Assembly: GCF_002995495.1 (NCBI RefSeq)
Contig: NZ_PVZV01000004.1
Location: 620,001-684,000 of the forward strand
Reading direction: 5' to 3'
DNA length: 64,000 bases
Source: Actinocorallia populi
GTDB lineage: Bacteria > Actinomycetota > Actinomycetes > Streptosporangiales > Streptosporangiaceae
A program made the translations under genes and the position numbers. This document shows positions 38,985 to 64,000 of the stretch, one piece after another. Each line of letters starts with the position of its first letter. The stretch's first letter is position 1. Under the pieces are notes generated by a model. It had not been told where the DNA came from. It saw nothing but the letters and a program-made list of their open reading frames with translations, and searched no databases.

Positions 38985-39406
38985 CGGTGGTCGATCACCT
39001 CGTCCAACCGCACCGCCAATGCCTCCAGTTGGGCCAGGCCCTCCGCCACCCGCTCCAGGCACCGTCCCAGCTCCGGTGGGCACTCCCCGGACGTGTGAAA
39101 CCGCATGGTGATCTGGTTGAGGTTCAAGCCCACCCGTCGGATCTGCCGATTGCTCTCCATGACCTCGCGCAGCAATGCCCGATCAGCAGACCTCGCCAGC
39201 GGCATTTCCTCACGCGCCGCCAAGAGAACCGCCTCAGCGGCAAAGAACGTACGGGTCATGCCATTCCGCTCCGCTGCTGCCCTGATCGCCTCGTGCTCGT
39301 TCTCGCTGAGCCGCAGGCACAAACACCGCCGCCGCGCATCCTCCCCGCGCCGCCGATACCCCCGTTGACGTGGCCACCTGTCTTCGCCCTGCCCGCTGTC
39401 CGACAC
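38981..39406 (-). CDS. mobC: MobC-like relaxosome protein
   Basis: A 141-residue protein with a ribbon-helix-helix-like part (CLCLRLSENEHEAIRAAAERNGM) and a MobC core (VGLNLNQITMRFH). It helps the relaxase open oriT. GTG at 39406 with GGAGG before it is preferred to the ATG at 39520, because the longer frame would run through the inverted repeat at 39461-39496. Confidence 0.8.
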   Translation of the reverse strand: MSDSGQGEDRWPRQRGYRRRGEDARRRCLCLRLSENEHEAIRAAAERNGMTRTFFAAEAVLLAAREEMPLARSADRALLREVMESNRQIRRVGLNLNQITMRFHTSGECPPELGRCLERVAEGLAQLEALAVRLDEVIDHR

Positions 39407-40494: not shown

Positions 40495-43400
40495 ATGGCG
40501 GAGTCTGTGCTCGCGGGGCTGTCTGATGAGGAAAGGCGCATCCGAGATTACGCGAAGGCTGTGCTCGACGAGTGGTCGGCTTCGCCGACGTGGGGGCCTG
40601 GAAGGCAGCTTCGGGCGCTGACCTTCTCCAACGCTCGTGACTATGAGGGCCGGTTCCTCATCGAGCTGCTCCAGAACGGTCATGACGCCCATCCGAGGGA
40701 GTCTGGTGGCGGCAGCATCCATGTGTTCCTCGACCTGGGGGAGGGGCCGTTCGGGACGCTGTATGTGGCCAACGGGGGGAGGCCGTTCTCCTGGGAGCAG
40801 GTCGAGTCCGTCTGCAAAATCGCGCAAAGTGCGAAGACGGTGGGCGAGGGCATCGGCAACAAGGGGGTGGGGTTCCGCAGTGTTCTGTCGATCACCGACG
40901 CTCCTGAGATCTACAGTGCCCGGCCGGACGGCTCGTGCGGCGGTTCCCTCGACGGCTTCCGCTTCCGGTTCGCTACTCCGGACGATTTGCGTGACCTGCT
41001 GGACGGCCGGGATGAGCTGGCCCGCACAGCCGCGGATGAGCTGCCGCCTTTCCAAGTGCCCTACCCGCTCGATGAGGTGCCCCCTCGCTGCGCCGAGCTG
41101 GGTGCCGCCGGGCATGTGACCGTGATCAGGCTGCCGCTGCGCAACGAGCGTGCGACGGGCGAGGCGGTTCGGCGGCGGGACGAGCTGACAGGTGCCACGG
41201 CTCCAATCATGCTGTTTCTGCCGAGGCTGGAACGGCTGGTCCTGGAGACCAGAGAGGTCGACGGAAGTACGGCCCGGACCGAGCTGACACGGGATGAGGC
41301 GCCTGTCTTTGCCGGGGAGCCGGCCCCAGGAACGGTGGTGCCGCTCGTGTCGGCGGTCCGCGTCGGTCTCGGATCAGCCGGTGAGTACCTGGTGGCCCGG
41401 GGTCTTCTGGCAGAGGAGCGGCTTCGCGGGACGGTGGCCGAGGCGACGGCTGAGGGAAGGCTTGACGAGTCCTGGCAGAACTGGTCGGAGCCCGCGCAGG
41501 TCGAGGTCGCGATCCCGCTCGGTCGACCCGCGGAGGAGCAGGGGAGGATCTACACCTTCCTGCCGTTGGGAGAAGGAGCCCGGGCTCCGCTGTTCGGACA
41601 TCTCAATGCGCCGTTCTTCACCAAGGTCGACCGCACCGCGTTGGATCGCGAGCACCCACTCAACGCCGTGCTTTTCGACGCTCTCGCGGAGACTTCCCTG
41701 ATCGCCGCCGCGTACCTCCGCGACGATCCTCGGCCGGAATTCCGGCACGCCGCCGTCGACATGATCGGTTGGGATCCCGGCGATGAGACCGCTGGCCTGT
41801 TCGTGTCCGCCGCCAGTCGGGTATTCGATGAGCAATTCGTGGATCTTCCTGTCCTGCCGGTCCTGGACGGCGGTCGGGGAGGGTGGGAGTCCATCCGGCA
41901 GGCCGTGCACTGGCCACCGAAGCACACCACGGTCCTGACCGCCGAGGCTGCACGGCGGGCGGGCTTGAACGTCATCGATCCGGCGATCGGCCCGGCCAGG
42001 CTCGCGAGGCTCACGAAGTTGTGCTCCTGGCTCAGACACCCGGTCGAGCCTGGGCTGGAGGTGCTGGCCAGCCACGTCGAGAAGATCGTCTCCGACCTCC
42101 CCCGTCCCGGACAAAGAGAGGATGTGGGGTCCTGGAACGAGGTCTACACCGATATCGCCGGGTTGTTCGGCAAGGACGGGACGGTTCTGCAGGGTCGCCG
42201 CCTGCTGCTGGCCGACGACGGGAGCCTGCGCCCGTGTAACGAGGCTGGCGCCCGCGGGAAGGCCGCTGGCCGGGACGGGTTCTTCGCGCCGATCCGGGGA
42301 GAGGACAACGTCGAGGACGGTCTGAACCTGCCGCAACAGCTGAGGAAGAGGATGTTCCTGTTGCATCCGGGTCTGGTGTGGCGGAGCGCCGATGGACGCT
42401 CGCTGAGCCAGGCGCGGATCTTCCTCGAAAACAACGGCCTCGTCCGCCGTTTCGACGCCGCAGGGCTGCTCGACCATGTCAAAGCCGCTCTGAAGGACAG
42501 CACGTCACGGGAGCTGAGGTGGCAGGCGCTGAAGTTCGTCTTTCGTCTTCACCGTTCACGCCGCAGTTCGGGCAGCCTGTCCGTACGGGATGTGGGGCTG
42601 TGGGTACCGTCGGCGTCGGGCCGTCTGGTCGAGGCGTCCACGGCTGTCTTTGGACCGGGCTGGCAGGACACGCTCGGCGATGACCTGGCGATGGTGATCG
42701 CTGAAGGGCGGGATGCCTCATCTGGGTTGCGTTGGATGGAGGGGCTTCTTCTGGCGCCGCCACAAGAGTTCCTGGGCCGCGGCGACACCCAGGCGGAATG
42801 GCGGGACTTCCTCACCGCCGCAGGAGTCCAGGATGGCCTCCTCCCTTGTGTCACTCCGAATGCGGTGACCCGAGCCGACGGTTGGAAGCTCACGACCGAT
42901 CGGATCGTCTCCATGGCCAAGGTGCCGCCGGCTGTCGCCGAGCAGTGGAGACCATTTATAGGGCTGGCGAGGTCGCGTGCCGCCAACCCGAACACTCCAT
43001 ATGTTGCAGGCGGGGCGTCTCGACTTCCCGGGCAGGATGTCGCCTGTGATCTGACCGATCCAGCTCGACTCGCCTATGCCCGTCTGGTTTTGTCAGGTCT
43101 GGTGCAGTGGCAGGACAGTCATCTGAAGTCGGTGTGGAAAAAGGATAGGCCCAGGGATCCCGACCAGGTCGGGGTGCTCACTCCTCTGGCGGCGTTCGTC
43201 CGGGGACAGCCCTGGCTTCCTGTGCGGGCTCCCGACCGGTCGCAGTCCTTCGTTCGGCCGACCGACGCCTGGCACTGCCCTTCTACGGTCGAGGAAGAAC
43301 CGGGATTCGCCCCGATCCTGCTGCCGCAGCTCCGCCCGCTGCTCCGCGGGGAGGCCCTCACACGCCTACGGAATGAAGGCCTTCCCGTCTGGGGCGCACC

Positions 43401-45840: not shown

Positions 45841-45939
45841 GGATTCTTATTTCAAGTGGGCGTTTGGCCCTTTCCGCGCTCCGTCCGCGTCTGAACCGCC
45901 CTGGTTCCGTTAAAAGATGATGTGCCCCGTGCTGGGCGG

Positions 45940-46235
45940 AGTCGGGTTGCTGGAGCTTCGGACCTATCGGCTGATGTTCGGTAGCGGAAGGCTGGCCTCG
46001 CTACGGAACGCTACCGACCGCTCTCGACCGAACGGAACTTGTGCCAGATGGAGCAGGCCGCCGACCAAAAGAAGGGCCACCAAGGCGGTCGGCCTCGTGG
46101 TCACGACACCGACCTGTACAAGGAGCGGACATCGTCGAGCGCCTGATCAACAAGCTGAAGGCGGGCAAGGCATCGTCACTGGCTACGACAAGGCCCTTGC
46201 CAGCTACCTCCCGGCGTCCGGCAAGAGCTTCCCCG
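45940..46235 (+). pseudogene. IS5-family transposase remnant, frameshifted
   Basis: Frames combined read EQAADQKKGHQGGRPRGHD, DLYKER, then DIVERLINKLKAGKG and GYDKALASYL, the zinc-knuckle-free C-terminal part of a common actinobacterial IS5 transposase (normally ERNTVERAINKLK...). At least two frameshifts. A different element from the intact one at 47945. Confidence 0.65.
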
Positions 46236-46350
46236 CCACTGGCTTCACCACGGCTTCACCCTCGGCCTGGCGGTTTCCCAGGCTCCGGTGTCTTACTGAA
46301 AAAAGGCAGACATTGGGTAATTTATCAGCTCTTAATGCCAAAGTGTCTCT

Positions 46351-47504
46351 ATGGATTTGACCGCCGCCGCAGTGCACGCGGCTCTCCGCGAGTTCGACGA
46401 GCTCGGACGGGAAGCGTTCCTCGCCAAGTACAGATTCCGCCGGGCCCGAAAGTTCTTCATCCTCCATGAGGGGCGCGAGTATGACTCGAAGGCCATCGCC
46501 GGTGCGGCGCACGGCCATCTGCCCGGTGCCGCTCCGCTCCGGGCTTCTGAGTTCTCCGGCGGAGAAGCCACATAGTCGGCGTGCTGCGAGCCCTGAATTT
46601 CACCGTGGTCGATCGGAGCGCCGGCGTCGCGCCCTTGGGGCCTTTCACACCGATCCACAGCCTGAGACCGAACTTGGTCAAGGGCCGCCCGATGCTCAAG
46701 CAAGCCGTCGTGCTGGTGTGGGCGATCGGCCGCGCCGTCCATGGACGGCCTCGGCTGGCACCCTGGACGGAGAGCCGAGAAGAACTCCACCCGCTGCTGA
46801 AGGAGTTCAAACGCGACGGCGAGAGCAAACGGCCGAACCCCGCCCACCCCATCGCGGCGCTCTACCAAGCCGGACTATGGGATCTTCAAGGATTCGACGG
46901 CGTGGTGCCGACCGCACACGGACACCCTGAAGACTGGTTCGCATCTCGGCACCCCACCGGAGGCCTGCCGACCGCATGCCACGACCTCGTCCGGACGTCC
47001 GTCACCGCCCGCCTCGAAGTCCTCGACGCGTTGCAGGAGAAGTTCGAGCTGTCTCCGGAGGAGTATGAGGCATTGCTCTCGGCCGCCGGAATCGATGATG
47101 AGACCGGGCCGAGGCCTGCCGTTGACGACGACTCCTATGCGCGGCTGTGTCGACTCGCGGAGTCCAGAGAGCAGCGCGGTCTACGCAGACCGAAGCTCAG
47201 AAACGAGCCGGTCAGACTCGACCCCGCACGCCGGGTGGTCCTGGAGCGCAGCGCTGGTAACTGCGAGTTCTGCGGCACGCCCGCACCCGACGTCACCGAC
47301 CGGGGCATACCCGTTCTGGAGGTCGACCACATCGAAGGCCTCGCTGAGGGAGGACGGGACCACCCTGAGCAGATGATCGCGCTATGCCCGAACTGCCATG
47401 CCGTCAAAACCCGAGGGACCAGACGTCACACCGTGGCCGAACAGCTCCGGGAGATAGCCACACGACGTCACCGGCAGAAGCTGGAGTCGAATGGCGACCG
47501 GTGA
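46351..47504 (+). pseudogene. ScoMcrA-like sulfur-binding HNH endonuclease, frameshifted
   Basis: One gene in two frames. 46351-46575 gives the N-terminal head (AALREFDELGREAFLAKY, EYDSKAIAGAAHG, FSGGEAT), then TAG; 46577 onward continues in another frame (VGVLRALNF). Next come a DNA sulfur-binding domain (LKQAVVLVWAIGRAVHG, PRLAPWTE, PNPAHPIAALYQAGLW) and an HNH nuclease (CEFCGTP, VDHIEGL, CPNCHAVK). Intact relatives such as ScoMcrA are type IV restriction enzymes that cut phosphorothioate-modified DNA. The shift at about 46573 probably inactivates it, unless the second frame is translated alone from 46581. Confidence 0.72.
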
Positions 47505-47944
47505 CGAAGCAAGTGAGGCCGCTGCCGATACGGGTGGTCTATCCCCGACCCGGCTCCCGTAGCCGGAGACGAAGACACCCCTTGAACACCCCTCCGACGG
47601 GCACGTCCGAGTTGCAGCGGATGCGAGCCCGAGAACGTCGGACGACTGACGATCAAATCCGCACGCGCCATCTTCGGACCGCCCCCGTCGAATTGGGCCG
47701 ACAATGATCGTGATGACGAGGTGCCCTTCGGTCCTGACGCGGGGAATTCGACTCCGTAACGGCGATCTTCGGATGGATCAAGACGACTCCCACAGCTCTG
47801 ACCCGCCTCTTCGCAGTCTGTGTTGTGTCCGTAGATCGGTGTGACGTCAAATCGTCTGCCTGGACGGACGGGGACTCCCACGCAACAGAGCCCCGTCCGT
47901 TCAGCGTCAAGCGCGGACACGGCGACTTCTCGGTCACGCCCTTA
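47505..47944. other. Intergenic before IS5-like element
   Basis: About 440 bp without a supported gene; a 10-bp stem at 47864-47873 / 47891-47900 is the only structure seen. Confidence 0.45.
47864..47900 (+). terminator. Possible terminator hairpin
   Basis: ACGGACGGGG pairs perfectly with CCCCGTCCGT across a 17-nt loop, downstream of the HNH gene. Confidence 0.35.
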
Positions 47945-49079
47945 GTGAGCGTTTGGGTCCTGAATAGGGTGTTTTATGCCTTTTTCTGTGGGTGACTGGG
48001 GACGCAAAGGGCGGGATATTCGAGGAAGTTGGCGCCTGGAGTGGCGCTCGGGGCGGGCGTGGCGGTGTTTGGCGGCTTTCCTCCTGTCTGATTCCAAAAC
48101 GCCCTGCTCGATGGTGCTTTGCGGGTGGCGGTGACGCTGTAGTTCGCTGCCGTGGCCTTCAGGGCCGTGGGCGGAGCGACCGGGCGGAGGTAGGCCGGGG
48201 CCATGGCGTCTTCCCCCTATCCGAGTGATCTGTCCGATGCCCGCTGGCAGCTGATCGAACCTGTCCTCACCGCCTGGCGCACCCGCCGCCAGGAAGCCGC
48301 TCTGGGTTTCGGGCGCAGGCCCGAGCACGACCTGCGCGCCATCATGAACGCGATCATCTACGTGGACCGCACCGGCATCGCCTGGCGCTACCTGCCGCAC
48401 GACTACCCGCCCTGGCAGAGCGTCTACTGGTACTTCGCCGCCTGGCGCGACGAAGGCATCTTCACCGAGCTGAACGGCCTGCTGCGCCGCCTGGCCAGAA
48501 AGGCCGAAGGCCGCAGCCCCGAGGCCTCGGCGTGCGCGATCGACGCCCAGAGCGTCAAGACCTCCGCCAACGTGCCCCTGACCAGCCAGGGCGTGGACGC
48601 GGCCAAGAAGATCATCGGCCGCAAACGCCACATCGCTACCGACACCCTCGGCCTGCTCCTGACCGTCCTGGTCACCGCCGCCAGCGTGCAGGACTCGGCC
48701 GCCGGCACCCGCCTGCTCGACCAGCTCGCCACCGGCCACCCCGCCGTCCGCAAGGCCTGGGTCGACGGCGGCTACCGCCCCTACTTCCTCGACCATGCTG
48801 CCACTTTGGGCATCGACGCCCAGATCGTGCCCCGTGACCCGGCCATCCGTGGCTTCACCGTCCTGCCCCGCAGGTGGGTGGCCGAACGGACCTTCGGGTG
48901 GCTCATGCACCACCGCCGCCTGGCCCGCGACTACGAGGCCCTGCCCGCCACCTCCGAAGCCATGATCCACCTGGCGATGATCGACAACATGACCCGCCGA
49001 CTCACTAGCGAAAACACCCCAAACTGGCGCGGAACCTGAAACCCGTGATCAGGCAGACTTCACGGCTTCAAACGCTCAC
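47945..49079 (+). mobile_element. Intact IS5-family insertion sequence
   Basis: Bounded by inverted ends GTGAGCGTTTG (47945-47955) and CAAACGCTCAC (49069-49079), with a TTA target duplication at 47942-47944 and 49080-49082. Length 1135 bp. One transposase gene inside. Intact ends, duplication and frame suggest recent insertion. Confidence 0.85.
48203..49039 (+). CDS. IS5-family transposase
   Basis: A 278-residue DDE transposase: an N-terminal YPSDLSDARWQLIEPVL, GIAWRYLPHDYPPWQSVYWYF, the first Asp in CAIDAQSVKTS, the second in WVDGGYRPYF, and Glu in WVAERTFGWLMHHRRLARDYE. Full length for the family and without interruption. ATG 48203. It moves the element that encodes it. Confidence 0.9.
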   Translation: MASSPYPSDLSDARWQLIEPVLTAWRTRRQEAALGFGRRPEHDLRAIMNAIIYVDRTGIAWRYLPHDYPPWQSVYWYFAAWRDEGIFTELNGLLRRLARKAEGRSPEASACAIDAQSVKTSANVPLTSQGVDAAKKIIGRKRHIATDTLGLLLTVLVTAASVQDSAAGTRLLDQLATGHPAVRKAWVDGGYRPYFLDHAATLGIDAQIVPRDPAIRGFTVLPRRWVAERTFGWLMHHRRLARDYEALPATSEAMIHLAMIDNMTRRLTSENTPNWRGT

Positions 49080-51737
49080 TTAGAAGATCCTGAGGTCGCT
49101 ACTGTGAACAGCGGGTGGATCTTCGATCGTGTCGCGATCGGTCGCCAGTTGTGTCAAAAGCCGGAGGAGACCGTCGATGGCTGAATGATCTGTGCATTTG
49201 ATTGCGTAGCCATAGTGGATCAGTCTTTTGCCTGATTTAAGGCGTTTGGGGAACCTGTCCAGGCCAGAGTCGTGGAAGTAGTCGCTCTCAGCCGGTACAT
49301 CGAGCCCTACGACACTTCGCATCTTGTCGAGGGGAGTCTCAGGTGCGACAACAACGGAACGGCTCTTGGTCTGCCGACTCAGGTAAACGGTTTGCCCGCT
49401 GTCCTGGTGTTCGAGTCTGAACCAGGACTGGTTCGAAGCCTTGGTGACTGTGAACCCCCACTTGATGGCGATGGCGACGACCTCATCCTGAGCAGCTTCG
49501 ATCTGTTGGGCGATCTCGGAGAGTGTCCCTTTGCCTTGGACTTCCCATCTGGTCGTCCCGCGGATTCCGGAAGGCGGATTGAGGCCAGCCTGCACCATCA
49601 TGCGCATGACAAGGCCACTGGGCGTGTAGCGTTCGCCGTCGACCGCCCATGTCAGAGGCGAATTCCTGTCATTGGACCAGGTCGCCCGGCCTCGTGAGGG
49701 CTCCTTTGAGATCCAGAGCAGAAGATCCCTCCGCTCCCGCTCGGTGTCCGGACGGAAGATCAGAGGCGTTCCGTCCTCTAGAGAGCCTTCATCGAGGATG
49801 ACCCTGACGGCGTCGGCCTTTCTAGCATTTGAGGATCTCAGGTCAACTGCTTTGGGACGGACCCGGGGGGTGGGTACGAAAGTACCTGTTTGGATGGCGA
49901 GAACGTCTTCGACCAGCTTGCGGCATTTGGAATGGTTCTTGAACAACGAGCCGAGGAACGCGCCGCTGTGTTGTTCGGCCACTTGAGCTGCGAGCTGGTC
50001 GTGCATCGTCTTGGTCAAGTCGCCGACGACCGCGAACCGTCCTTCCGCTGTCGCATCGGGGTCGTCGAGAACGTCTGGGCTCAGCCGAGAGAAGACCAGA
50101 TGAGCTATGAGCCGATTGCCGTGAACGGCGACTCCCGCATCACGGCCGCTGATCTCCTGCCGGAGCGCGGTGAGTCGTTCATCGATGGCGCGTAGGACCA
50201 GCACGCTATTCCACATGCGAACGACGTTGAGGTTTTCGGGGAACAGAGCTTGGTAGACACGGTCCTCACTGGATGACCACAAGCTGCTGACCTGTCGCTT
50301 CGCGTCCACCGCGAAGTCAGGGTCGGCCGAGGCACACGCCAGAGCGATCGCCGCCTCGTCGACTTCGCACCCGTCGTCGCCTGTGATGGGCTCGCTGCTG
50401 CGCCGCAGACCGTAGGTCTTGTTGAACTGAAGGCGGAACTGCGCCCGGATCATCTCCTGCCGCGGATCGAGCGCGATGAAGTCTCGAGCTTCTACTCCGT
50501 TCTGTGTGTTGGTGGCCCTGGTGACCCGTGAGCCGAACCCGTCGGGGCAGCCTTCGAGGGAGATGATCCGGACCCAGATTTTGGCATCCCCGAGCCGTTC
50601 GGGTTCTTTGCGTAGGATGGACCGGACGCTGGCCGCGGTCTGCGCACCGTTGACAATGGTCGCGCCGGTCACGCTGAATCTGCCGTACTCCCGGTTCGGA
50701 CTGTCGCGCACCGACCGGCGGACTTCCTCGGCGAGCACGGTGATCCCATTGTTGAAGTACCAGAAATGCTCGGGCTCGTTCCACAGTGTTGCAGTGAGGT
50801 CATCATTGACGGGGGTATGGCCTAGGGCGTCCCTGAGGTTGCCATCGAACAGACGCTCTCCGTGCTGCTCGTACCATTCTGCGATCTGGGTGGCGTTTGC
50901 GACGCCGTAGTACGCGCGATAGGGGGTGTCTGTACTGCCCCAGCCGGTCAGGTGTACGTCGATGTCGACGCCTCGAGAAGAGGCGCCGTTGACGATGAAG
51001 TCGTGTAGCGCGCGAGTCCCCAGCACGATGAGATCGATCATCTCTCCGTCGCTGTTGATCTCATCGCAGAAGTCTTCCAGGGGGCGGATGACCTCCGCCC
51101 CGAGTTGGTCCGAACCGGTGGAGACCAAGGCAATAGTGATCTTGGTTTGAGTGTTGAGCAGTGCCTGGTTGAGATCACTCTCCAGCGCCCGCAGCCTAGG
51201 GTTGAAGCGCTCGAACCGGGCAGCGAAAAGATCTTCTGCTCCATTGCGGAGTTTGAGTGCTTCGGCCTGGTTGAGGTTTTTGCGGCCATTATGGTGCCAT
51301 TTGGTCTGGACTAGGACGATCCGCTCATGCGCGTCGTCCACCGCAACACCGTCGATGCCGTTGTCGCTGAATCCGTCGATTACGCAGGCCGCCGCTGCCT
51401 GCGGTGTGAAGCCGGTGAGCGCCTGGATTCCGAGTGCGGTCAGGGCCCGGGACAGCACTGCCGGGTTGGACTCGCTGCGGTCTTGGAGGTCGGATAGGTC
51501 CAAGTGGGGGAGGAATTCGCGTTTGAGGTGCGCGGCGATCTGGTTGATGTGCAGGATGCTCAAGGTGCAAGCCTCGGCTTCGGGGAGGAGAGTGACAAGG
51601 ATCGATGTTACCTGGGACTTGTCTTCTCTGTAAGAAATTTTCGTCTTGTGATGGTTTTCGTGACCCTCTCTGTAGGCCTTGTCGCTGGCAGGAGCATGAG
51701 CATGGGTAACGGGCCACGGCTGATTCCGGTAGTTCAT
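49080..51737 (-). CDS. AIPR-family (abortive infection phage resistance) protein
   Basis: An 885-residue protein. The AIPR core lies at about residues 290-560, with EHFWYFNNGITVL and VTGATIVNGAQTAASV. An N-terminal part has a restriction-like look (DGFSDNGIDGVAVDD ... IVLVQTKWH, Asp and Gln-x-Lys of a Mrr/PD-(D/E)XK fold). The C-terminal 230 residues are an extra domain of unknown type. AIPR proteins are linked to phage defence. The start is uncertain: ATG 51737 or an internal TTG near 51566. The IS5-like element is inserted exactly at its TAA, leaving the protein intact. Confidence 0.78.
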   Translation of the reverse strand: MNYRNQPWPVTHAHAPASDKAYREGHENHHKTKISYREDKSQVTSILVTLLPEAEACTLSILHINQIAAHLKREFLPHLDLSDLQDRSESNPAVLSRALTALGIQALTGFTPQAAAACVIDGFSDNGIDGVAVDDAHERIVLVQTKWHHNGRKNLNQAEALKLRNGAEDLFAARFERFNPRLRALESDLNQALLNTQTKITIALVSTGSDQLGAEVIRPLEDFCDEINSDGEMIDLIVLGTRALHDFIVNGASSRGVDIDVHLTGWGSTDTPYRAYYGVANATQIAEWYEQHGERLFDGNLRDALGHTPVNDDLTATLWNEPEHFWYFNNGITVLAEEVRRSVRDSPNREYGRFSVTGATIVNGAQTAASVRSILRKEPERLGDAKIWVRIISLEGCPDGFGSRVTRATNTQNGVEARDFIALDPRQEMIRAQFRLQFNKTYGLRRSSEPITGDDGCEVDEAAIALACASADPDFAVDAKRQVSSLWSSSEDRVYQALFPENLNVVRMWNSVLVLRAIDERLTALRQEISGRDAGVAVHGNRLIAHLVFSRLSPDVLDDPDATAEGRFAVVGDLTKTMHDQLAAQVAEQHSGAFLGSLFKNHSKCRKLVEDVLAIQTGTFVPTPRVRPKAVDLRSSNARKADAVRVILDEGSLEDGTPLIFRPDTERERRDLLLWISKEPSRGRATWSNDRNSPLTWAVDGERYTPSGLVMRMMVQAGLNPPSGIRGTTRWEVQGKGTLSEIAQQIEAAQDEVVAIAIKWGFTVTKASNQSWFRLEHQDSGQTVYLSRQTKSRSVVVAPETPLDKMRSVVGLDVPAESDYFHDSGLDRFPKRLKSGKRLIHYGYAIKCTDHSAIDGLLRLLTQLATDRDTIEDPPAVHSSDLRIF

Positions 51738-53186: not shown

Positions 53187-54488
53187 TTACGGCTCAAGCC
53201 GGTTGGGCCCCCGGAAGAGAAAGGTCGTCTCTCTGATCGAGGGCAACCCTAGGAGGAGCATGAGAAGGCGGGAGAGTCCCAGACCGAGGCCGCCGTGGGG
53301 CGGAGTCCCGTAGCGGAAGCAGTTGAGATAGCTCTCGAGCGGTTCGAGGTCCATGCCTTTTTCTCGGGCCTGAGCAGTGAGGACGCCATAGCGGTGCTCA
53401 CGTTGGGCGCCAGTGGTGATCTCGATGCCCTTCCAGAGCAGGTCGAAGCTCTCAGTGACCGTCGGGTCGTCGGCGGGACGCAGGTGGTAGAAGGGACGGG
53501 CCTCGGCTGGGAACCGGGTCACGAAGACGAACTCATGGCCGGTTTCCTGAGCGATGAGCGCTGAGAGAGTACGTTCGCCTTCGGGGTCGAGGTCTTGCTT
53601 GGTTCCTTCGGAGTCCCACCCGGTGGCGTGCAGGCGAGCGAGGGCGTCGGCCATGGTGATGCGTGGGAACGGCAGGGCCGGGACGGTCACGGTGATGCCG
53701 AAGTGATCCTCGATAGCGGGACCGTGGGCCTCGGCTACGTCGGCGAGGACGCGTTGAAGCATGCGTTCTTCGACGGCCATGACGTCTTCTACGGAATCGA
53801 TCCAGGCCATCTCCAGGTCGACGCCGGTGAACTCGGTGGCGTGGCGTGAGGTGAAGGAGGGTTCTGCACGGAAGACGGGGCCGATCTCGAAGACGCGGTC
53901 GATGCCGCCTGCGATGGCCATCTGCTTGTAGAATTGCGGGGATTGGGCGAGGTAGGCGGTGCGGTCGAAGTAGCCGACTTTGAATACCTCGGCGCCTGAT
54001 TCTGAGGCTGTGCCCATGAGCTTGGGGGTGTGCAGTTCGGTGAAGCCCTCGGCCGCGGCTACTTCACGCATGGCACGTTCGACGGTGGTCTGAACGGTGA
54101 ACACGAGCTGCTGAGCGGGGCGCCGCAAGTCGAGGAACCGCCAGTCGAGACGCTGGTCGAGGTTCGTGTGCTCGTCGATCGGCAGTGGTGCTTCTGCCGG
54201 GGCGACGATCTCGACGCGGTCAGGGATGATCTCGAGGCCGCCGAGCTTGACCTTGTCGTTCATGACGACCTTGCCGGTGATTTTCACGGCGGATTCGACG
54301 GCCGAGGCCTCGAGGGTGTGCTCGATGGCGTCGTCAGCACGAATGTGAGTGATCTGGACGAGGCCGGTGTGGTCGCGGACGATCACGAACTGCATGCGTC
54401 GTTGGAGACGGAGAGCCTGGATCCAGCCGCAGACGGTGACCGTCTCGTCCGGGTGGTGGGGAAGGTCGCGGATCAGGGTGCGCGACAT
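53187..54488 (-). CDS. aspS: Compact archaeal-type aspartyl-tRNA synthetase
   Basis: A 433-residue class II synthetase. An OB-fold anticodon-binding domain (about 1-105, VTVCGWIQALRLQRRM) precedes the catalytic core: motif 1 region near ELHTPKLMG, motif 2 FEIGPVFRAEPSFTSRH, motif 3 GLGLGLSRLLMLLLGL. It lacks the large GAD insertion of bacterial AspRS (about 590 residues) and so is the archaeal/eukaryotic type, often non-discriminating between tRNA-Asp and tRNA-Asn. AAGGGAG precedes the ATG. As last gene of the oxygenase operon it may be a resistance copy or a pathway enzyme rather than a housekeeping one. Confidence 0.85.
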   Translation of the reverse strand: MSRTLIRDLPHHPDETVTVCGWIQALRLQRRMQFVIVRDHTGLVQITHIRADDAIEHTLEASAVESAVKITGKVVMNDKVKLGGLEIIPDRVEIVAPAEAPLPIDEHTNLDQRLDWRFLDLRRPAQQLVFTVQTTVERAMREVAAAEGFTELHTPKLMGTASESGAEVFKVGYFDRTAYLAQSPQFYKQMAIAGGIDRVFEIGPVFRAEPSFTSRHATEFTGVDLEMAWIDSVEDVMAVEERMLQRVLADVAEAHGPAIEDHFGITVTVPALPFPRITMADALARLHATGWDSEGTKQDLDPEGERTLSALIAQETGHEFVFVTRFPAEARPFYHLRPADDPTVTESFDLLWKGIEITTGAQREHRYGVLTAQAREKGMDLEPLESYLNCFRYGTPPHGGLGLGLSRLLMLLLGLPSIRETTFLFRGPNRLEP

Positions 54489-54620
54489 CGCGGCAACTCC
54501 CTTGGTTGCAGGCGCGTTGGTCGCGCCGGGTGAGCAGTGCGGTAGACGGCCGCCTGCGGGGACTTGATCAGGCTACCCGACAGGTGGCCGTGGGTCTTCC
54601 GCTTTTGGGTGCGGCAGCGG

Positions 54621-55736
54621 TCAAGCGAGGCTGAACACCCCGGAGAAGATGGGTAGTCGGTACTTTTCGATGATCTCGTTGAAGGCGACGTGGACGTCGA
54701 TGAGGCCGTCCAGGTCGTAGTGGAAGGGGATGTCTTGCTGGCCGACCACGAACGGAGTCAGAACGGTCGGTGAGGGGACGACACCGAGTGCGGAGATGGT
54801 CTCCAGGCCGCGGAGCGTGTCGTCAGGGGGTTCGATGCCTGCGAGCAGGCAGCTGCCGACCTGCTGGTGGCCGAAGATCTCGACGGCGTCGGTGAATACG
54901 GTGACGTAATCGTCGAAGGTCAGGGTGCCTTTGTATCCGTGGACGTAGCGCTTGCGGTAGTCGTTGTTGACGATCTCGACGCCGCTATTGAAGCGGCTGA
55001 CGCCCGCGTCCTTGAGCGCTTGGAGGTAGTCGCGGCGTGCGGCACCGTCATGACGGATGGCGTTGGGGATGACCTGAGAGACGTAGATGCCTTCGGTGTA
55101 GCCGACAGCGCGGAGCTCCGCAGCTAGACGACAGTGGCGGTCAAGTTCGAGCTGGGCGTCCTTGATGCTTCCGGTGCACAGCCAGACGATGTCGTACTTG
55201 GTCAGGAAGTCCTCGGCGTGTTCACGGACGTGCTGCAGGCAGGCTTCGAAGTTGTCGGAGTAGCCGGCTGCGGAAGCGCCTTGGACTGCGAGGATCTCCC
55301 ATTCGGACTCCTTGAAGCAGAAGTCGCATTTGTAGGCGCAGAAGGTGTGGTAGTCGAACACGAAGCTGCGCATGCCGTTTTCGCGGAGCAGTCCGAAGTT
55401 GTACATGCCGGTGGGGGCTCGATCACCGTCGATGAACTGGACGCAGCCGATGCGCTGAACCGTCCCGTTGATGCTGGCGCTCAGGTGGGTGCCGTCGAAC
55501 ATGAACGAGGAGAGCTGATTCACGCGGACGGTGACCTTCTTGCGGGTGTCCCCGTCGGAGACCTCTATCTCGATGCGGGGCACCACCTGGCCGAGGACGG
55601 GAAAGCGGATGTCCGCGGTGGTGAGCTGGACACCGTCACGGAGCACGCCGAGCCTGAACAGCTCGAGCTTGCTGACCTTGCCGGCGCCGGTGATGGCCAG
55701 GTTGAAACGGGAAGTACGCGAGGTAGGGGAAAACAC
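54621..55736 (-). CDS. Radical SAM enzyme
   Basis: A 371-residue protein with a CX3CX2C cluster motif (CAYKCDFC) near residue 132, after an N-terminal beta-rich domain of about 110 residues. The following TIM-barrel segments (VWLCTGSIKD, GIYVSQVIPN, RFNSGVEIVN, QVGSCLLAGIEPP) resemble those of the biotin synthase/MoaA-type superfamily, without a SPASM-type extra Cys cluster. The reaction is unknown. GTG start 55736 with GGGAG. Third gene of the operon, 26 nt after the amidohydrolase. Confidence 0.82.
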   Translation of the reverse strand: MFSPTSRTSRFNLAITGAGKVSKLELFRLGVLRDGVQLTTADIRFPVLGQVVPRIEIEVSDGDTRKKVTVRVNQLSSFMFDGTHLSASINGTVQRIGCVQFIDGDRAPTGMYNFGLLRENGMRSFVFDYHTFCAYKCDFCFKESEWEILAVQGASAAGYSDNFEACLQHVREHAEDFLTKYDIVWLCTGSIKDAQLELDRHCRLAAELRAVGYTEGIYVSQVIPNAIRHDGAARRDYLQALKDAGVSRFNSGVEIVNNDYRKRYVHGYKGTLTFDDYVTVFTDAVEIFGHQQVGSCLLAGIEPPDDTLRGLETISALGVVPSPTVLTPFVVGQQDIPFHYDLDGLIDVHVAFNEIIEKYRLPIFSGVFSLA

Positions 55737-55762
55737 GGTGTCTCCCTTTCAGAGGATCAGGC

Positions 55763-56896
55763 TCACGTGAGCAGTCGGTGGGCGTTGCCTCCTTGGAGGG
55801 CTCGGGCATCGGACGGGGGAAGGCGGTCGAGGACCGGCTTCCATTCGGCGGTCGGGTCTGCGGGCGTGCCGGGGTGCGGGTAGTCGGTGGCGAGCATCAG
55901 CCGTCGGCGCAGCCAGGCGGGCATCGCGGTGACGTCCTCACCCAGACCGATCGAGAAGAAGAAAGTGTCGGCCTCGGTGAAGTACTCGGCCGGTGGCCGG
56001 TTCGGGAGCCGGTCGGCCTTGTTGCGGCGGAGCGTCTCCCACGACTCCTGAGCACGATCCAGCCAGGAGGGCAGCCATCCGGCGTTGCACTCGTGAAAGG
56101 CGAACCGGATACCGGGGAACCGGTCGGGGATCCGCGTGTCCAGGAGGGCGGCCAAGCAGAGCGGGCCGGGGAGGGTCTCGTTGACATGGTTGAAGAAGGC
56201 CCCGGCGGCATCCGAGCGCAGGCTCAAGCCAGACGACGAGGGCAGGAAGTGCGGAATCGCGACCTTGTGAAGATGCACGACCAGGCCGAGATCCTGCACG
56301 GTGGCGAAGAACAGGTCCGCGTCGGCGAACGATGTGAGTCCCGCGGGCAGCATGACGTGGCCGAAGCCTTCATCGGCCAAGGCCGCCAGCCTCGTGGACA
56401 GGTAGGGCGTGAACGCGGTCTGGGCGACAGGGATGAGGCGCCCCGGGGCTGCGGACGTCATGTCGAGCAGCCACCGGTTGTAGGCGTCGAAATGGGCCTC
56501 GGCATAGGGACTGATCGGGTCGATCTCTCGCGGCCAGATGAGCCCGAGGCTGGGGAACAGGAGAGTCGCATCGATGCCTGCCTGGTCCAGCCAGTTCAGT
56601 CGGGCGGGGCCGTTCCAGGAGGTGATCGTGCACGAGTCGCGGTAGGAGACGAACTCACCGGTGGCGGGCAGATGGTTCCAGTCCAGGATTTCGTGACCGT
56701 CACGTGGCGCGACGCCGCCCAGTCGGCGGATCAGCCGCGACGGAGTTCCGTCGATCAGGAGCTTGTCACCGTCGGCGGGGTCCCGGACGACCTGGAGGCA
56801 CCGGTCACGGAACGCCGGTTCCACGTACTGGGGCCACAGCCACAAGGGCTCCATGACATGACCGTCGGTGTCGATGGCATCGTTTTCATTCCACAC
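55763..56896 (-). CDS. Amidohydrolase 2 (ACMSD-like) family protein
   Basis: A 377-residue protein starting at GTG with IDTDGHVMEP, a DxH-type first metal motif of the amidohydrolase-2 family. Later VVHLHKVAIPHF, FHECNAGWLPSWLDR and the metal Asp in ATDYPHPGT complete the site. Members decarboxylate or hydrolyse small acids and amides, with substrates such as ACMS. The motif has DGHV where metal-binding relatives have DxHxH, so ligand number may differ. 15 nt after the oxygenase gene; one operon. Confidence 0.8.
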   Translation of the reverse strand: MWNENDAIDTDGHVMEPLWLWPQYVEPAFRDRCLQVVRDPADGDKLLIDGTPSRLIRRLGGVAPRDGHEILDWNHLPATGEFVSYRDSCTITSWNGPARLNWLDQAGIDATLLFPSLGLIWPREIDPISPYAEAHFDAYNRWLLDMTSAAPGRLIPVAQTAFTPYLSTRLAALADEGFGHVMLPAGLTSFADADLFFATVQDLGLVVHLHKVAIPHFLPSSSGLSLRSDAAGAFFNHVNETLPGPLCLAALLDTRIPDRFPGIRFAFHECNAGWLPSWLDRAQESWETLRRNKADRLPNRPPAEYFTEADTFFFSIGLGEDVTAMPAWLRRRLMLATDYPHPGTPADPTAEWKPVLDRLPPSDARALQGGNAHRLLT

Positions 56897-56911
56897 GGCT
56901 GTCCCCTTGGA

Positions 56912-57904
56912 TCAGTTCGGCAGGGCGAGGGTGCGCCGGTAGCTCGACGGATAGCTGGCGGCCCGCGAATCGCTGACGATGCACGCACCGTCGCCTGAGG
57001 GGTGGCGGAGCAAGAGACGTTGAAGCCAGCGGTCGGTGCCGTCGTAGGCTGGCGTGAACGCGGTGCGCCCGTGGACCGCGCGCCGATTGTCGATGACGAG
57101 CGCATCGCCCGGTTCGAGCGCGATATTCACAGCACAGGCGCCGAACGCGGCGGCGAGTTCGTCCAACGCCTTGCACGCCGCCCGGGTACAGCCGACCAGC
57201 GATTGCGCGTACTCGACCTGCACAGCGCGTGAGATTGGTTGCGGCTTCGTCATCCGCCGGCCTCCGGACAGATGCGTCCCTTGGTCTGTTTCGAAGGCGA
57301 ATTCCGGACGCTTCAGCCGCTCCCTGGCACGCTCTGTCAGGCGGCTCAACGCCAAGCCGATGTCGCACACGGACGTGCGCGCCTTCCCTGCCGGGTCGGC
57401 TCGCAGCGCCATGAGCACCAGATGATCGGGAGAAACGTCCGCGAACGACGCCTCGGTGTGCAGGACAAGCTCGGCTGACCCGGAAGATGCCTGGACTTCG
57501 GTGTGGGAGGCGATCGGGTAGCGGTTCTGGACCAAGTGCCCGCGGTCCCACTCGCGGTAGGCGAAGATCTCACCGACTGCAGAGCCGAGCACGCCCAGGA
57601 TTCCTTCAGTCCCCAGCGGTGTCTGGGAGGCCAGGAAGTCGAACCGCACGCGGGGTGTCTCCGGCACCAACCACGGCAGCGGCAGCCCCCGGATCAACAA
57701 CGCGACCCTGTCCTGGTGCGTCCGCAGCGCGGCGAGCGCATCACGGACCGGCGCGGGCAGCGACCCACTCGCATACTTGGCCTGCGCGACGAACAGTTCA
57801 GGCTCGCTGTAGGGGTTCGCTGTCACCACGGCGGCCGTGCGATGCACGGCCGCGGACAGGGCAGGGGTGAGGTCGAGGGTCGTGAGACGGGTCGTGGGAG
57901 CCAT
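56912..57904 (-). CDS. Clavaminate-synthase-like Fe(II)/2-oxoglutarate oxygenase
   Basis: A 330-residue TauD/CAS-fold protein. Iron ligands are visible in LHTEAS (His-x-Glu) and RAVHGRTAF (His); the 2-oxoglutarate-binding Arg is in DGTDRWLQRLLLRH. The DNRRxVHGR...F..YDG.DRWLQR layout matches AsnO/VioC-type beta-hydroxylases of free Asn or Arg. It would hydroxylate an amino acid as first step of a pathway. First gene of the operon; two palindromes lie in its upstream region. Confidence 0.85.
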   Translation of the reverse strand: MAPTTRLTTLDLTPALSAAVHRTAAVVTANPYSEPELFVAQAKYASGSLPAPVRDALAALRTHQDRVALLIRGLPLPWLVPETPRVRFDFLASQTPLGTEGILGVLGSAVGEIFAYREWDRGHLVQNRYPIASHTEVQASSGSAELVLHTEASFADVSPDHLVLMALRADPAGKARTSVCDIGLALSRLTERARERLKRPEFAFETDQGTHLSGGRRMTKPQPISRAVQVEYAQSLVGCTRAACKALDELAAAFGACAVNIALEPGDALVIDNRRAVHGRTAFTPAYDGTDRWLQRLLLRHPSGDGACIVSDSRAASYPSSYRRTLALPN

Positions 57905-57934
57905 GGCCGACGCTCCAAGCGGTGAGGCGGACCG

Positions 57935-57946
57935 TTGTGATCACAA
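57935..57946. promoter_or_regulatory. 12-bp palindrome upstream of oxygenase operon
   Basis: TTGTGATCACAA is an exact palindrome, 31 nt before the start of the oxygenase gene; candidate operator. Confidence 0.45.
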
Positions 57947-57971
57947 GCCTCGCGCCCGCATCAGCCGGAAA

Positions 57972-57989
57972 GTTGCACTCGTGTGCAAC
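57972..57989. promoter_or_regulatory. 18-bp palindrome upstream of oxygenase operon
   Basis: GTTGCAC-N4-GTGCAAC, arms exact, 68 nt before the oxygenase start and 36 nt past the stop of the XRE regulator gene; candidate operator for that regulator. Confidence 0.5.
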
Positions 57990-58024
57990 CCTCGGCCCGC
58001 TCAATAACGAAATAGTCACGCTGA

Positions 58025-59215
58025 TCAGTACGGTACGCCCAGCCAGGTGGCCAGGCCGAGCACGGCATCCGTGCTACGGCCTGCTCGTCCGAGAACAGCG
58101 GTGACGACCTCTCGGGTTCCAGGGTTAGTGCGCGTGTGCTGAGGTGCCCGACGTCGTGCCTCCAGCAACGACGCGACCGCTCCCGCCGGATCGCCCGCCC
58201 AGATCTGGGCACGCGCCAGGTCGATGAAGAAATGGCTGGCCCGCTCAGCGGGTAGTCCCACGGGCGGTGTCCAGCCTGCGGCGCGATGGACGGCCTCCGC
58301 TCCGTCCCGCAACTCGACCGCAGCAGCCACCTCATGGACTTTCACGCTGGCTGCGCCGAAGCTGGTGTGGAAGTGCTCAACGTCACCGTCGACCGCGTCC
58401 ACCATCATCTTCGCGATCTTCAGGTTTGACCACGCAACCGATGTGTGTCCGCCGAATGCAGCGAGCACGGCCGCCCGGGCATGTAGCGCTCCGTACACGC
58501 TCGCGGCTCGCCGATCCGTCATCACCTTGGTCGCAATCCGGTCAGCGGCCGACTCCAAAAGGACCAGGCCCGACTCCGCCGAACCGGTGACGAAGAACGT
58601 CTCAGAACGCACGTACGACGCGGTTGCGATCATTAGCTCATCCCGAGACCGCTCGGCCGCCCACCGCACCCTCTCGATCGCTGCCAACGACAGATCCAAG
58701 TGTCCCAGCTTGTGCGCGATCGCGTCCGCGCACCGATAGGCAGCAGCCAGCAGCCAGTACACCCGGTCCTGGTCCGCACCTCGCGCGTGGAAGCTCGCTG
58801 CGAGCAGATCCTCCAGCAAAGCCGGGAGCATCTCTCCCAACGCCACGTACCGGGAGTTCAAGCGCAGCTGCCCGGCCCGCTCGGTCTCGTGCGCCAGCTC
58901 TCCGAGGGACCGCACCGGCGGCCGAGCACGCGGCAGGTCGTAATCCACCATCATCTGCCGCAGCGGAGGCAGGCACGCTGACATCCGGGCCTCGATGCCC
59001 CTCTCATCCGGAGCCAGCCCCATCAAGACGGGCGCTTCCACACCCAGCGCATTCGCAACCCGAACCGCGAGATCCCAACTGCCCGGACGGTGCCCCGCCT
59101 CCACCTTGCTGATCAGAGACTTCGACGCCCCGGACAGGTCCGCCAGCTCCTGCTGGGTCAACCGGTGCAGCTTCCGCAACACACGCAGCCTGTCACCCAA
59201 ATCCACAGGAGTCAT
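58025..59215 (-). CDS. XRE-family regulator with TPR-like domain
   Basis: A 396-residue protein with an N-terminal helix-turn-helix (LGDRLRVLRKLHRLTQQELADLSGASKSLISKVEAG, about residues 5-45) and a long helical region with TPR-like repeats to the end. ATG 59215 (MTPVDLG) is preferred over 59317, which would take up the space before the divergent HAD gene. This type of regulator is common beside small accessory pathways in actinobacteria and may sense a small molecule or peptide. It precedes the oxygenase operon on the same strand with a 120-nt gap. Confidence 0.82.
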   Translation of the reverse strand: MTPVDLGDRLRVLRKLHRLTQQELADLSGASKSLISKVEAGHRPGSWDLAVRVANALGVEAPVLMGLAPDERGIEARMSACLPPLRQMMVDYDLPRARPPVRSLGELAHETERAGQLRLNSRYVALGEMLPALLEDLLAASFHARGADQDRVYWLLAAAYRCADAIAHKLGHLDLSLAAIERVRWAAERSRDELMIATASYVRSETFFVTGSAESGLVLLESAADRIATKVMTDRRAASVYGALHARAAVLAAFGGHTSVAWSNLKIAKMMVDAVDGDVEHFHTSFGAASVKVHEVAAAVELRDGAEAVHRAAGWTPPVGLPAERASHFFIDLARAQIWAGDPAGAVASLLEARRRAPQHTRTNPGTREVVTAVLGRAGRSTDAVLGLATWLGVPY

Positions 59216-59322
59216 CACCGCCGCCTCCAGACCGCCGCTACGAGGAACCGCCGTATGCTCACCCCAGAGTCGGATCAACAATCTACGATCCGCAAGAGTC
59301 GAGAGCACGGAGGACACCCCCC

Positions 59323-59976
59323 ATGGCGATCCGATCGGTGGTCTTCGACGTCGGAGAAACGCTCATGGACGACTCCACCTTCTGGGGCTCCTGGGCCGAC
59401 TGGCTCGGCGTTCCCCGCCACACCCTCGCCGCCCTCGTCGGCGCCGTGACCGCCCTCGGCCACGACAACGTCGAAGCCCTCCGCCTCATCTGCCCTGACT
59501 TCGACCTGGCCGCAGAACGCCAAGCCAGAGAAGAAGCCGGCCAGGGTGAAACCATCAGCGAGAGCGACCTCTACCCAGACGTCCGGCCCGCACTCAGCGC
59601 GCTCAAGGCCAACGGGCTCTGGGTCGGGATCGCAGGCAACCAGACCACCCGAGCAGCGGAACTCCTAGCTGCCCTTGATCTCCCCGTCGACGCCATTGCC
59701 ACCTCCGGCCAATGGGGCGTAGCCAAGCCCAGCACCGAGTTCTACGACTACCTGATCGCCTGGGCACCCGGTGCCCCAGACGAGATCGTTTATGTCGGCG
59801 ACCACCCGGTGAACGACATCCTCCCTGCCAAAGCGGCTGGCCTCCACACCGCACACATCCGACGCGGACCTTGGGGCTACCTCCATGCCGACGACCAAGA
59901 GGTCAAAGAGAACGCCACTTGGCGGATCAACAGCCTGACCGAGCTGGCATCTCTACTGACCACTCCGGCCGGGTGA
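59323..59976 (+). CDS. HAD-family hydrolase
   Basis: A 217-residue HAD protein. Motif I is FDVGET (nucleophile Asp 9), motif II Ser/Thr in the IAGNQTT segment, Lys in VAKPSTEF, and motif III YVGDHPVNDI. It probably dephosphorylates a small metabolite. CGGAGGAC precedes the ATG. Divergent from the XRE regulator with 107 nt between starts, so both may share control. Confidence 0.85.
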   Translation: MAIRSVVFDVGETLMDDSTFWGSWADWLGVPRHTLAALVGAVTALGHDNVEALRLICPDFDLAAERQAREEAGQGETISESDLYPDVRPALSALKANGLWVGIAGNQTTRAAELLAALDLPVDAIATSGQWGVAKPSTEFYDYLIAWAPGAPDEIVYVGDHPVNDILPAKAAGLHTAHIRRGPWGYLHADDQEVKENATWRINSLTELASLLTTPAG

Positions 59977-62811: not shown

Positions 62812-64000
62812 TCAGCGAGTGATGGTGACGATTTCTACCCGGGCGCCCATCTCCCGTAGCCGCTTTACGGCGCGCAGTAGTGACACCTGAGCAAATGCGA
62901 ACAGAGAATTGATGTTGATCTTCTCTCCTCCCTTGAGTCGGATTGCGTAAACGAGGGTGATGGAACCCAGGTCTTCAGAAGCGACACGCCCTGGAGCATG
63001 CTCGGCCAGGAGCTCCAGGAACTTCTCGCGCACTATCCGATCATGGCGCAGGGTCTCCACAGCTACGACTCCCTGAGCGAAGAGATGGTTCAGCGGGGCA
63101 GTGCTCTGGTCGGCCTTCTTGACACAGATCAGCTGATTGTCTGGACCAAGCAGGTCGCAGATCTCCAGCCCGCCGCCCTTGAACTTTTGTGTGACAACTT
63201 TCTTCTTGTCGAAAAGGATATAGCCGGGTTGCTTGGCTGCATCCTCGTTGTAGGCGCCCTCCTCGTACGTTTCGGTGCTGCCCGCCTTGCGCTTTGGCCA
63301 AGGGGGCATGGCGACACTCGACTTCTGGTTGAATAGCTCGGTGAGTTCCTTCTCGATGGACTCGAGGTACTCCGCACCGATCTCGTACCAGCGGCCCTGG
63401 TGGTAGAAGTACCGGCCTGCCCCATGCGAAACCTCTGCGGTGAGCCACCGGTGTCCTACGACCCGGCCGCTAGCGGGTGTGTCACATTCAGCATCGCTGA
63501 ACATCTGGACCTGAACGCTCTTGAGCACGTCGATCCGCGTCCCGCTGGCACGATCGTGCACGAACTCCAGCAGCGCGTTCAGGTTCAGCTCGTCGACCTG
63601 GTGGACACGCTTTCCCTTTGTCACTTGGAACGCTTGCGCGCTGTCAAACCCATCGAGGCATTCGCTCGGGACGGCGAGCGCCAGCCGTGAGCTGGACGGG
63701 TCAGCGAGCAACGCATCCAGCTCCTTGTTCAACTGCTCTACAAGCTCGGTCTTTTTGGTCAACGGGTGGACGCGGTCGATGAAGTCGAGTTCGGGCAGTG
63801 GATTCTGGCGCGAACACACATCCTCGATGACCTGCAGGTCGTTACGGAATTCGGCCCAGCTCGTGGCCATCGGCAGCTTGATGTTGCTATCACTGCAGGA
63901 AACGGTGACGGTGCGGGCACCGTCACCGAGATGGGTGAGAGCTTCCTTTGACACCGTCCCGCTGATCTTGGTGAAGATGGAACCGAATTGGTCGATGCCG
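62812..64000 (-). CDS. TIGR04141/DUF6119 sporadically distributed protein, 5' partial
   Basis: The frame is open to the window edge (GIDQFGSIFTKISGT before the GTG at 63954), so the N-terminus lies outside; relatives are about 550 residues and 396 are seen. Typical segments: GRYFYHQGRWYEIG, AYNEDAA, YILFDKKKV, GGGLEICDLLGPDNQLICVKKA, LNHLFAQGVVAVETLRHD. Function is unknown; such genes are scattered and often near restriction or defence genes, as here. Family name is from recall of these motifs. Confidence 0.72.
   Translation of the reverse strand, partial: GIDQFGSIFTKISGTVSKEALTHLGDGARTVTVSCSDSNIKLPMATSWAEFRNDLQVIEDVCSRQNPLPELDFIDRVHPLTKKTELVEQLNKELDALLADPSSSRLALAVPSECLDGFDSAQAFQVTKGKRVHQVDELNLNALLEFVHDRASGTRIDVLKSVQVQMFSDAECDTPASGRVVGHRWLTAEVSHGAGRYFYHQGRWYEIGAEYLESIEKELTELFNQKSSVAMPPWPKRKAGSTETYEEGAYNEDAAKQPGYILFDKKKVVTQKFKGGGLEICDLLGPDNQLICVKKADQSTAPLNHLFAQGVVAVETLRHDRIVREKFLELLAEHAPGRVASEDLGSITLVYAIRLKGGEKININSLFAFAQVSLLRAVKRLREMGARVEIVTITR

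Follow-up and report, generated by a model that had tools for sequence, protein, structure and literature searches.

The 64,000-nt window of Actinocorallia populi analysed here carries a compact operon of four genes on its minus strand. Read 5' to 3', these encode an Fe(II)/2-oxoglutarate (2OG) oxygenase of the AsnO/clavaminate synthase/VioC group (56912-57904; TauD, with an HxE...H site), an amidohydrolase (55763-56896; PF04909, Amidohydro_2), a radical S-adenosylmethionine (SAM) enzyme that serves as the marker gene of the system (54621-55736; PF04055, alignment and structure model) and an archaeal-type, presumably non-discriminating aspartyl-tRNA synthetase (AspRS; 53187-54488) that is proposed to be a self-resistance copy. 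An earlier note on this DNA had read the four genes as separated by gaps of 15, 26 and 132 nt, and the coordinates of the open reading frames (ORFs) agree. Since the block is conserved at other loci, the four genes are not chance neighbours.

The oxygenase was expected to have an AsnO/VioC-type layout, and this expectation holds: AsnO (2og5) is its best sequence relative in the PDB, and residues H149, E151, H278 and R292, which we take to be the Fe(II) triad (HxE...H) and the C-terminal arginine, are invariant in a 13-row alignment. The iron site, the arginine of the C-terminal DRW motif and the overall layout are shared with the AsnO/VioC/clavaminate synthase group, including GntD and the KDO lysine hydroxylases. 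Unlike GntD and VioC, the window enzyme lies far below the equivalog cut-offs, the best NCBIfam model being GntD with 159.6 bits (cut-off 345), with VioC at 111.6 (418.6) and Cs1 at 133.4 (450). In the HMMER alignment, moreover, its Glu231 falls opposite AsnO Asp241, a residue which, allowing for a presumed numbering offset of the PDB construct, we take to govern the choice between Asn and Asp; Asp itself is thus not an obvious substrate. Judged from its family, a free amino acid is a plausible substrate of the oxygenase. For the amidohydrolase, a sequence search of the PDB at E 0.001 finds PtmU3 alone (E 4.4e-13 over about 244 residues), a kinship to PtmU3-type enzymes of the amidohydrolase fold that does not imply the same reaction.

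The radical SAM enzyme matches PF04055 (37.4 bits, cut-off 29.5), and the cysteines of its CxxxCxxC motif (C133, C137 and C140) are invariant in a 15-sequence alignment. The known families tried for this gene were rejected, as all scores fell under their cut-offs, with 44.4 bits against 303.7 for the MSMEG_0568 family (TIGR04043) and 61 against 125 for the variant_rSAM domain. The weak similarity to these MSMEG_0568/Nit1C-type enzymes lies mostly in the C-terminal half, whereas the window enzyme has an N-terminal part of its own and an invariant C-terminal tail, and no Nit1C partners were noticed beside it. A sequence search of the PDB gave only two matches (E 0.34-0.35). The predicted model (mean predicted local distance difference test score 75.1, with residues 131-159 under 50) resembles LipA, MqnE, NifB, HydG, BioB and others with Z of about 12 to 15, and because it resembles many enzymes alike, the reaction is left unassigned.

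With the radical SAM protein as the marker of occurrence, the system was found to be rare. The gene is carried by 7 of 297 family genomes (at 65% identity or more, the window included), by 7 of 345 genomes of the order and by 1 of 396 in a sample of the phylum, this one being the window; in a further 38 of the 45 family genomes with a match, the match was weak and partial (E 4e-9 to 5e-4) and was dropped, leaving the seven true carriers. A scan of genome contigs, covering 84,980 species per its description, yielded 13 loci, five of them the family carriers already seen; because the scan relied on two short peptide patterns, it may have overlooked distant relatives. A match on a Pantoea plasmid was also dropped, with a coverage of 25%. 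In total, 17 distinct loci were found, including two Mesorhizobium plasmids. Ten are non-rhizobial and seven rhizobial (L045-L049, L108 and L153). The carriers in Actinomycetota are the window genome (G000), its genus mates Actinocorallia sp. API 0066 (G016) and G075, Streptacidiphilus melanogenes (locus L038, genome G297), two Microbispora (G205, G065) and two Sphaerisporangium (G128, G190). The remaining non-rhizobial carriers are metagenome-assembled genomes (MAGs), one of Pyrinomonadaceae in the Acidobacteriota (L043, genome G298) and one gammaproteobacterial (L044, genome G299).

The earlier note held that its proposal would fall if the four genes were rarely together. This does not apply to the amidohydrolase and the radical SAM gene, which adjoin at 9 of the 17 loci, nor to the radical SAM gene and AspRS, which lie within 8 kb of each other at 10 of 17, that is, at all ten non-rhizobial loci and at none of the seven rhizobial ones. 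All four genes occur together at 7 of 17 loci, a count that includes the Streptacidiphilus locus (L038, 7774-13011), where the oxygenase is split over two frames and AspRS is broken by an assembly gap. Actinocorallia sp. API 0066 retains only the radical SAM gene and AspRS, and G075 lacks the oxygenase; in neither genome was a close oxygenase found elsewhere (best 32% and 31%, respectively). At L046 an oxygenase fragment lies upstream of the radical SAM gene. Pairwise identities of the radical SAM enzyme and the amidohydrolase correlate (r 0.91, 28 pairs from 8 loci), as expected of a unit, and since the pairs share loci, this value is descriptive only.

A longer version of the block, in the order oxygenase, amidohydrolase, radical SAM enzyme, second oxygenase and Rieske oxygenase, is present in Microbispora, Sphaerisporangium and the Pyrinomonadaceae MAG, with the Rieske oxygenase 49% identical across phyla. 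A Gfo/Idh gene precedes the Rieske gene in both Sphaerisporangium and the MAG locus L043, and not in the two Microbispora. All four Microbispora and Sphaerisporangium loci add an ABC-2 exporter, a LuxR-family regulator, an NMT1/THI5-type importer, a glycosyltransferase and a 651-aa protein (L039, 17627-19582) that has no confident family match. The system has the look of a horizontally spread biosynthetic pathway, of which the window operon would be the compact form.

On the two Mesorhizobium symbiotic plasmids (L108, 7583-11116; L153, 5584-9116), queC-queD-queE stand directly before the radical SAM gene, and no AspRS was found nearby. These genes bring in the notion that the system modifies a tRNA or nucleoside in the manner of queuosine, with AspRS acting on a modified tRNA-Asp and no compound being secreted; ORFs at L048 that resemble queC and queE by eye point the same way. 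Such a role is highly improbable, as the oxygenase falls in a group that acts on free amino acids, the full clusters carry the exporter, the importer and the LuxR-family regulator, and no que genes were noticed at the actinobacterial loci.

The window AspRS belongs to the tRNA-synt_2 family and, by its score against the aspartate--tRNA(Asn) ligase model NF003483 (476.5 bits, cut-off 353), to the archaeal, non-discriminating type, which would charge both tRNA-Asp and tRNA-Asn. The motifs by which its class binds aspartate and ATP are retained, except that the residue preceding the arginine of motif 3 is a Ser instead of an acidic one; within its clade this position holds Ser, Ala, Gly or Asn. 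Because the catalytic and Asp-binding motifs are kept, the cluster AspRSs look like working Asp enzymes and not like enzymes for a new substrate. A tree built from 48 AspRSs groups the four window-type cluster copies together, with a Shimodaira-Hasegawa-like approximate likelihood ratio test (SH-aLRT) support of 100, in a clade with six stand-alone copies, while the four Microbispora and Sphaerisporangium cluster copies form a separate set (SH-aLRT 100) in a clade with 30 stand-alone copies. The AspRSs that neighbour the radical SAM gene in the two MAGs (L043, L044) are bacterial-type, and as they sit on long branches, their exact place is unsure. The cluster AspRSs hence come from at least three sources, namely two archaeal-type clades and the bacterial type of the MAGs.

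In most of the non-rhizobial carriers the cluster enzyme is a second copy. A canonical bacterial-type AspRS is present besides it in 7 of the 10 non-rhizobial genomes (G000, G016, G075, G205, G065, G297 and G299), and in the window genome this housekeeping gene lies at C3:308413-310137, with the cluster copy on C4. Both copies in the gammaproteobacterial MAG are bacterial-type (778 and 609 bits). In the two Sphaerisporangium carriers, neither a profile search nor a protein query found an AspRS other than the cluster one, whereas 9 of 9 Sphaerisporangium non-carriers have the canonical enzyme (691-705 bits), a difference with a Fisher value of 0.018 that is not corrected for kinship. The Pyrinomonadaceae MAG also is without the usual AspRS; at a distance of 4.3 kb, the radical SAM gene is accompanied by a full-length AspRS that is divergent (486 bits), and the same contig holds an archaeal-type one (482 bits) 40 kb away. 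A long canonical match (669-751 bits) was obtained in 34 of its 40 relatives, against shorter matches or none in the other six. Matches barely above the NF003483 cut-off (353-365 bits) occur in seven relatives and are taken for asparaginyl-tRNA synthetases because that of the MAG itself, the only genome in which this was checked, scores 344.

The leaders of these genes provide a further line of evidence. The cluster AspRS of Sphaerisporangium G190 is preceded by a T-box leader (RF00230, 55.6 bits, E 1.7e-11), weaker matches precede the cluster AspRSs of G065 (38.6 bits) and G128 (35.4 bits), and 10 of 12 stand-alone AspRS loci scanned also match, the misses being L062 and L080. Every one of these matches passes on its E-value only, below the RF00230 gathering score of 93. 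The motifs were read in 44 regions upstream of archaeal-type AspRS genes (loci L031-L095), comprising 8 cluster genes and those of 36 of the 39 stand-alone genomes over the cut-off. In 37 of the 44, an AG box is followed by GAC, the Asp codon, where the specifier belongs, with counts of 4/4 for the Microbispora and Sphaerisporangium clusters, 29/30 for stand-alone genes of the same clade, 4/6 for stand-alone genes of the window-type clade and 0/4 for window-type clusters; 33 of 36 stand-alone archaeal-type genes thus have an Asp-specific T-box. The antiterminator bulge TGGNACC is present in 36 of the 37 GAC regions, the four cluster leaders among them, and the remaining region (L086) is itself an Rfam match. 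Where the bulge begins TGGC, it would suit a tRNA with G73, which we take tRNA-Asp to have. A stricter, ordered pattern was found in 35 of 44 archaeal-type regions, all with GAC, and in 0 of 16 regions upstream of housekeeping aspS (15 of family genomes plus that of G299), where Rfam also gave nothing at E 0.01. The Fisher value for this distribution overstates the evidence, since the rows are related.

The Stem I with its AG box, the GAC specifier and the UGGNACC bulge in the antiterminator are those of T-box leaders of aminoacyl-tRNA synthetase (aaRS) genes in general. Uncharged tRNA of the matching kind is what switches a T-box on (PMC2494555, a 2008 survey), and an Asp T-box would therefore be on if AspRS were inhibited or lacked aspartate. 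As Actinobacterial cases, the survey cites T-boxes that precede ileS in some species (PMC2494555); in contrast to those, the T-box described here is Asp-specific and stands on a second AspRS. Window-type AspRS genes also occur beside or near housekeeping aspS, with no recognised T-box, at L088 (G139) and L089 (G115).

The window-type cluster genes have a leader of another kind. At four loci AspRS follows 124-132 nt behind the radical SAM gene, and this stretch, which in the window is the gap at 54489-54620 (minus strand), is conserved in alignment; the predicted fold includes a hairpin whose loop holds a ribosome-binding-site-like AGGGAG. The 132-nt gap is not a T-box: it gave no match to RF00230 or to Rfam at E 0.1, and the model (219) is longer than the gap. 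At E 0.05, no T-box was seen for the cluster AspRSs of L043 and L044 either. Because the four sequences offer few covarying pairs and a slightly unfavourable covariation term, a regulatory RNA in the gap is only a guess.

Second aaRS copies beside antibiotic pathways are well known from self-resistance, as with IleRS2 and mupirocin, TrpRS and indolmycin, ThrRS and borrelidin or obafluorin, and SerRS and albomycin. The present system resembles these in that a second aaRS lies beside the pathway, belongs to a lineage other than that of the housekeeping enzyme and was recruited more than once; the window genome has the cluster copy besides its housekeeping copy, and the association recurs independently. 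It differs from them in that the aaRS is AspRS, that the canonical enzyme is gone in some carriers and that one lineage has an Asp T-box. On balance, the AspRS is best explained as a duplicate of the target that confers self-resistance, and the product as a candidate antimetabolite that inhibits AspRS. The oxygenase would first hydroxylate a small substrate, probably a free amino acid as its family suggests, and the amidohydrolase and radical SAM enzyme may then convert the hydroxylated substrate into a small antimetabolite. Fuller versions would add the second 2OG oxygenase, the Rieske oxygenase, transporters and, in some, the Gfo/Idh dehydrogenase. Aspartyl-tRNA synthetase is the most likely target of the product, and the neighbouring AspRS would be a spare, insensitive copy that allows the producer to go on translating.

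In another reading, AspRS is itself biosynthetic and supplies Asp-tRNA or an aspartyl-adenylate to a tRNA-dependent step, a job that the SerRS VlmL does for valanimycin. Its position directly downstream of the radical SAM gene at four loci, with similar spacing, and its retained catalytic motifs are what such a role would lead one to expect. Clades and types of AspRS that differ serve equally well, however, two carriers have no other AspRS, and among the neighbours scanned no aminoacyl-tRNA-using transferase was recognised, be it a GNAT, FemX, lantibiotic-type, cyclodipeptide or PEARL partner. A biosynthetic AspRS is unlikely, as no such partner was recognised, yet it keeps some weight because the 651-aa neighbour has no confident family. 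The spare-target role is the more likely of the two in view of the copy-number, T-box and replacement evidence. The earlier suggestion of an undescribed biosynthetic operon is supported by the recurrence of the gene set in several phyla, along with exporters and extra oxygenases, while a tRNA-dependent role of AspRS is now less likely than that of a spare target.

Several observations weigh against a spare target. None of the seven rhizobial loci has an AspRS near the radical SAM gene (three of them end at a contig end, and L153 was read from a feature table). The losses in the two Sphaerisporangium may be one shared event, and the Pyrinomonadaceae genome is a MAG, six of whose 40 relatives likewise yield shorter matches or none. 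Across 150 family genomes, the canonical AspRS is missing in seven, of which one is a carrier (G128) and the non-carriers include G104 and G125, which have archaeal-type copies; an archaeal-type AspRS over the cut-off is present in 44, of which only five are carriers. Insensitivity cannot belong to one AspRS type alone, since the L043 neighbour is bacterial-type. The window-type cluster AspRSs lack a T-box, although at L038 the stretch read contains an assembly gap. Finally, a T-box copy alone is not a mark of resistance, because stand-alone AspRSs with a T-box are common without the pathway.

The genomic setting of the window operon also has to be considered. Between roughly 30 and 76 kb in window numbering, the GC content is 0.63-0.67, down from about 0.72. 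Over 42 bp, the 3' end of tRNA-Gly(tcc) is repeated exactly at 32878-32919 (plus strand), which forms attL, and the other att copy is in the tRNA-Gly(tcc) gene itself at 75586-75627, 42.7 kb away and beyond the window. A tyrosine integrase (33052-34551, plus strand; PF00589) and a MobA/VirD2-type relaxase (37491-39083, minus strand; PF03432) lie between them. With integrase, att repeats and relaxase all present, the operon is cargo of an integrative mobilisable element in a tRNA-Gly gene. A like element was considered for the G075 operon, where a piece of relaxase 77% identical lies about 27 kb away, and is not claimed, since the one tRNA gene detected nearby has no second att-like copy.

Mobile cargo of this kind, together with the many stand-alone AspRSs with Asp T-boxes in the family, would suit a second AspRS that is a general stress-inducible or tRNA-supply gene, lying nearby as a passenger or because the pathway drains aspartate. 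That all ten non-rhizobial loci, in three phyla and with at least three AspRS sources, have an AspRS argues against this, as does the chance of such proximity in 8-Mb genomes, which we estimate at about a quarter of a percent per locus. A mere stress copy is therefore regarded as quite unlikely, and AspRS as a spare target remains the preferred explanation.

What would be new, rather probably, is self-resistance by a target duplicate with AspRS as the target. In agreement with the earlier claim that no characterised pathway has this enzyme set, none that fits was found in the literature searched, nor any description of AspRS self-resistance or of a cluster of radical SAM enzyme, amidohydrolase and asparagine oxygenase. 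To our knowledge, few natural AspRS inhibitors exist other than the Trojan horses of the microcin C type. It is probable that this set of enzymes from a soil actinobacterium builds a small antibiotic derived from an amino acid, and its target would have been named from sequence alone, before the metabolite itself was seen. The pair of radical SAM enzyme and spare AspRS offers a testable marker for genome mining, the system supplies an uncharacterised radical SAM family, and the compact operon of four genes is small enough for heterologous expression. The sensing logic of an Asp-specific T-box in Actinomycetota fits inducible resistance. A bolder and more doubtful extension is that the pathways form a family, the first of its kind, whose small-molecule product targets AspRS, which has a swap of AspRS as self-resistance and which spreads across phyla on mobile elements, with the T-box-controlled second AspRS, present in a large minority of the family, as the inducible resistance of the wider community to this class of compound; if so, a search for this T-box would map who meets AspRS poisons in soil.

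Next to the operon, an XRE-type regulator (58025-59317, minus strand) is encoded upstream and a HAD hydrolase (59323-59976, plus strand; Pfam) divergently, as had been noted; the XRE helix-turn-helix was recognised (HTH_31), and the tetratricopeptide repeats ascribed to the regulator were not. Neither protein turned up a counterpart in the related loci searched, so both are placed outside the core of the system as local genes. The 42.7-kb element also holds a sacsin-like giant protein, an AIPR/AbiU-like protein, an IS4/5-type transposase and a type I restriction system. The surroundings at 40495-51737 and 62812-63954 are defence-like, with a sacsin/NOV-like protein of 1781 aa, an HNH protein, the AIPR/AbiU-like protein, which matches the AbiU and MzaE models of PADLOC, and a DUF6119/TIGR04141 protein. 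The operon was itself tried as a defence system and rejected, PADLOC matching none of its four enzymes.

Other loci offer further observations. Relatives of the oxygenase in Bradyrhizobium (37%) were rejected as members of the system, as they lie on another contig and are not linked to the radical SAM gene; at L105 (4583-10602) and L106 such a relative stands beside a class-V aminotransferase, a nucleotidyltransferase, PhyH and a class II aldolase, and these genes may make up a small-molecule pathway of their own. In the gammaproteobacterial MAG (L044, 863-10995), a molybdenum cofactor (MoCo)-binding oxidoreductase, the amidohydrolase, the radical SAM enzyme, an APH-like kinase, a pyruvate-kinase-like and an HPr-kinase-like protein are followed by the second AspRS. 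In G016 (L031/L037), G190 (L124/L125) and G128 (L132/L133), the genes lie between greA/mca and ilvA, a chromosomal interval common to the three genomes.

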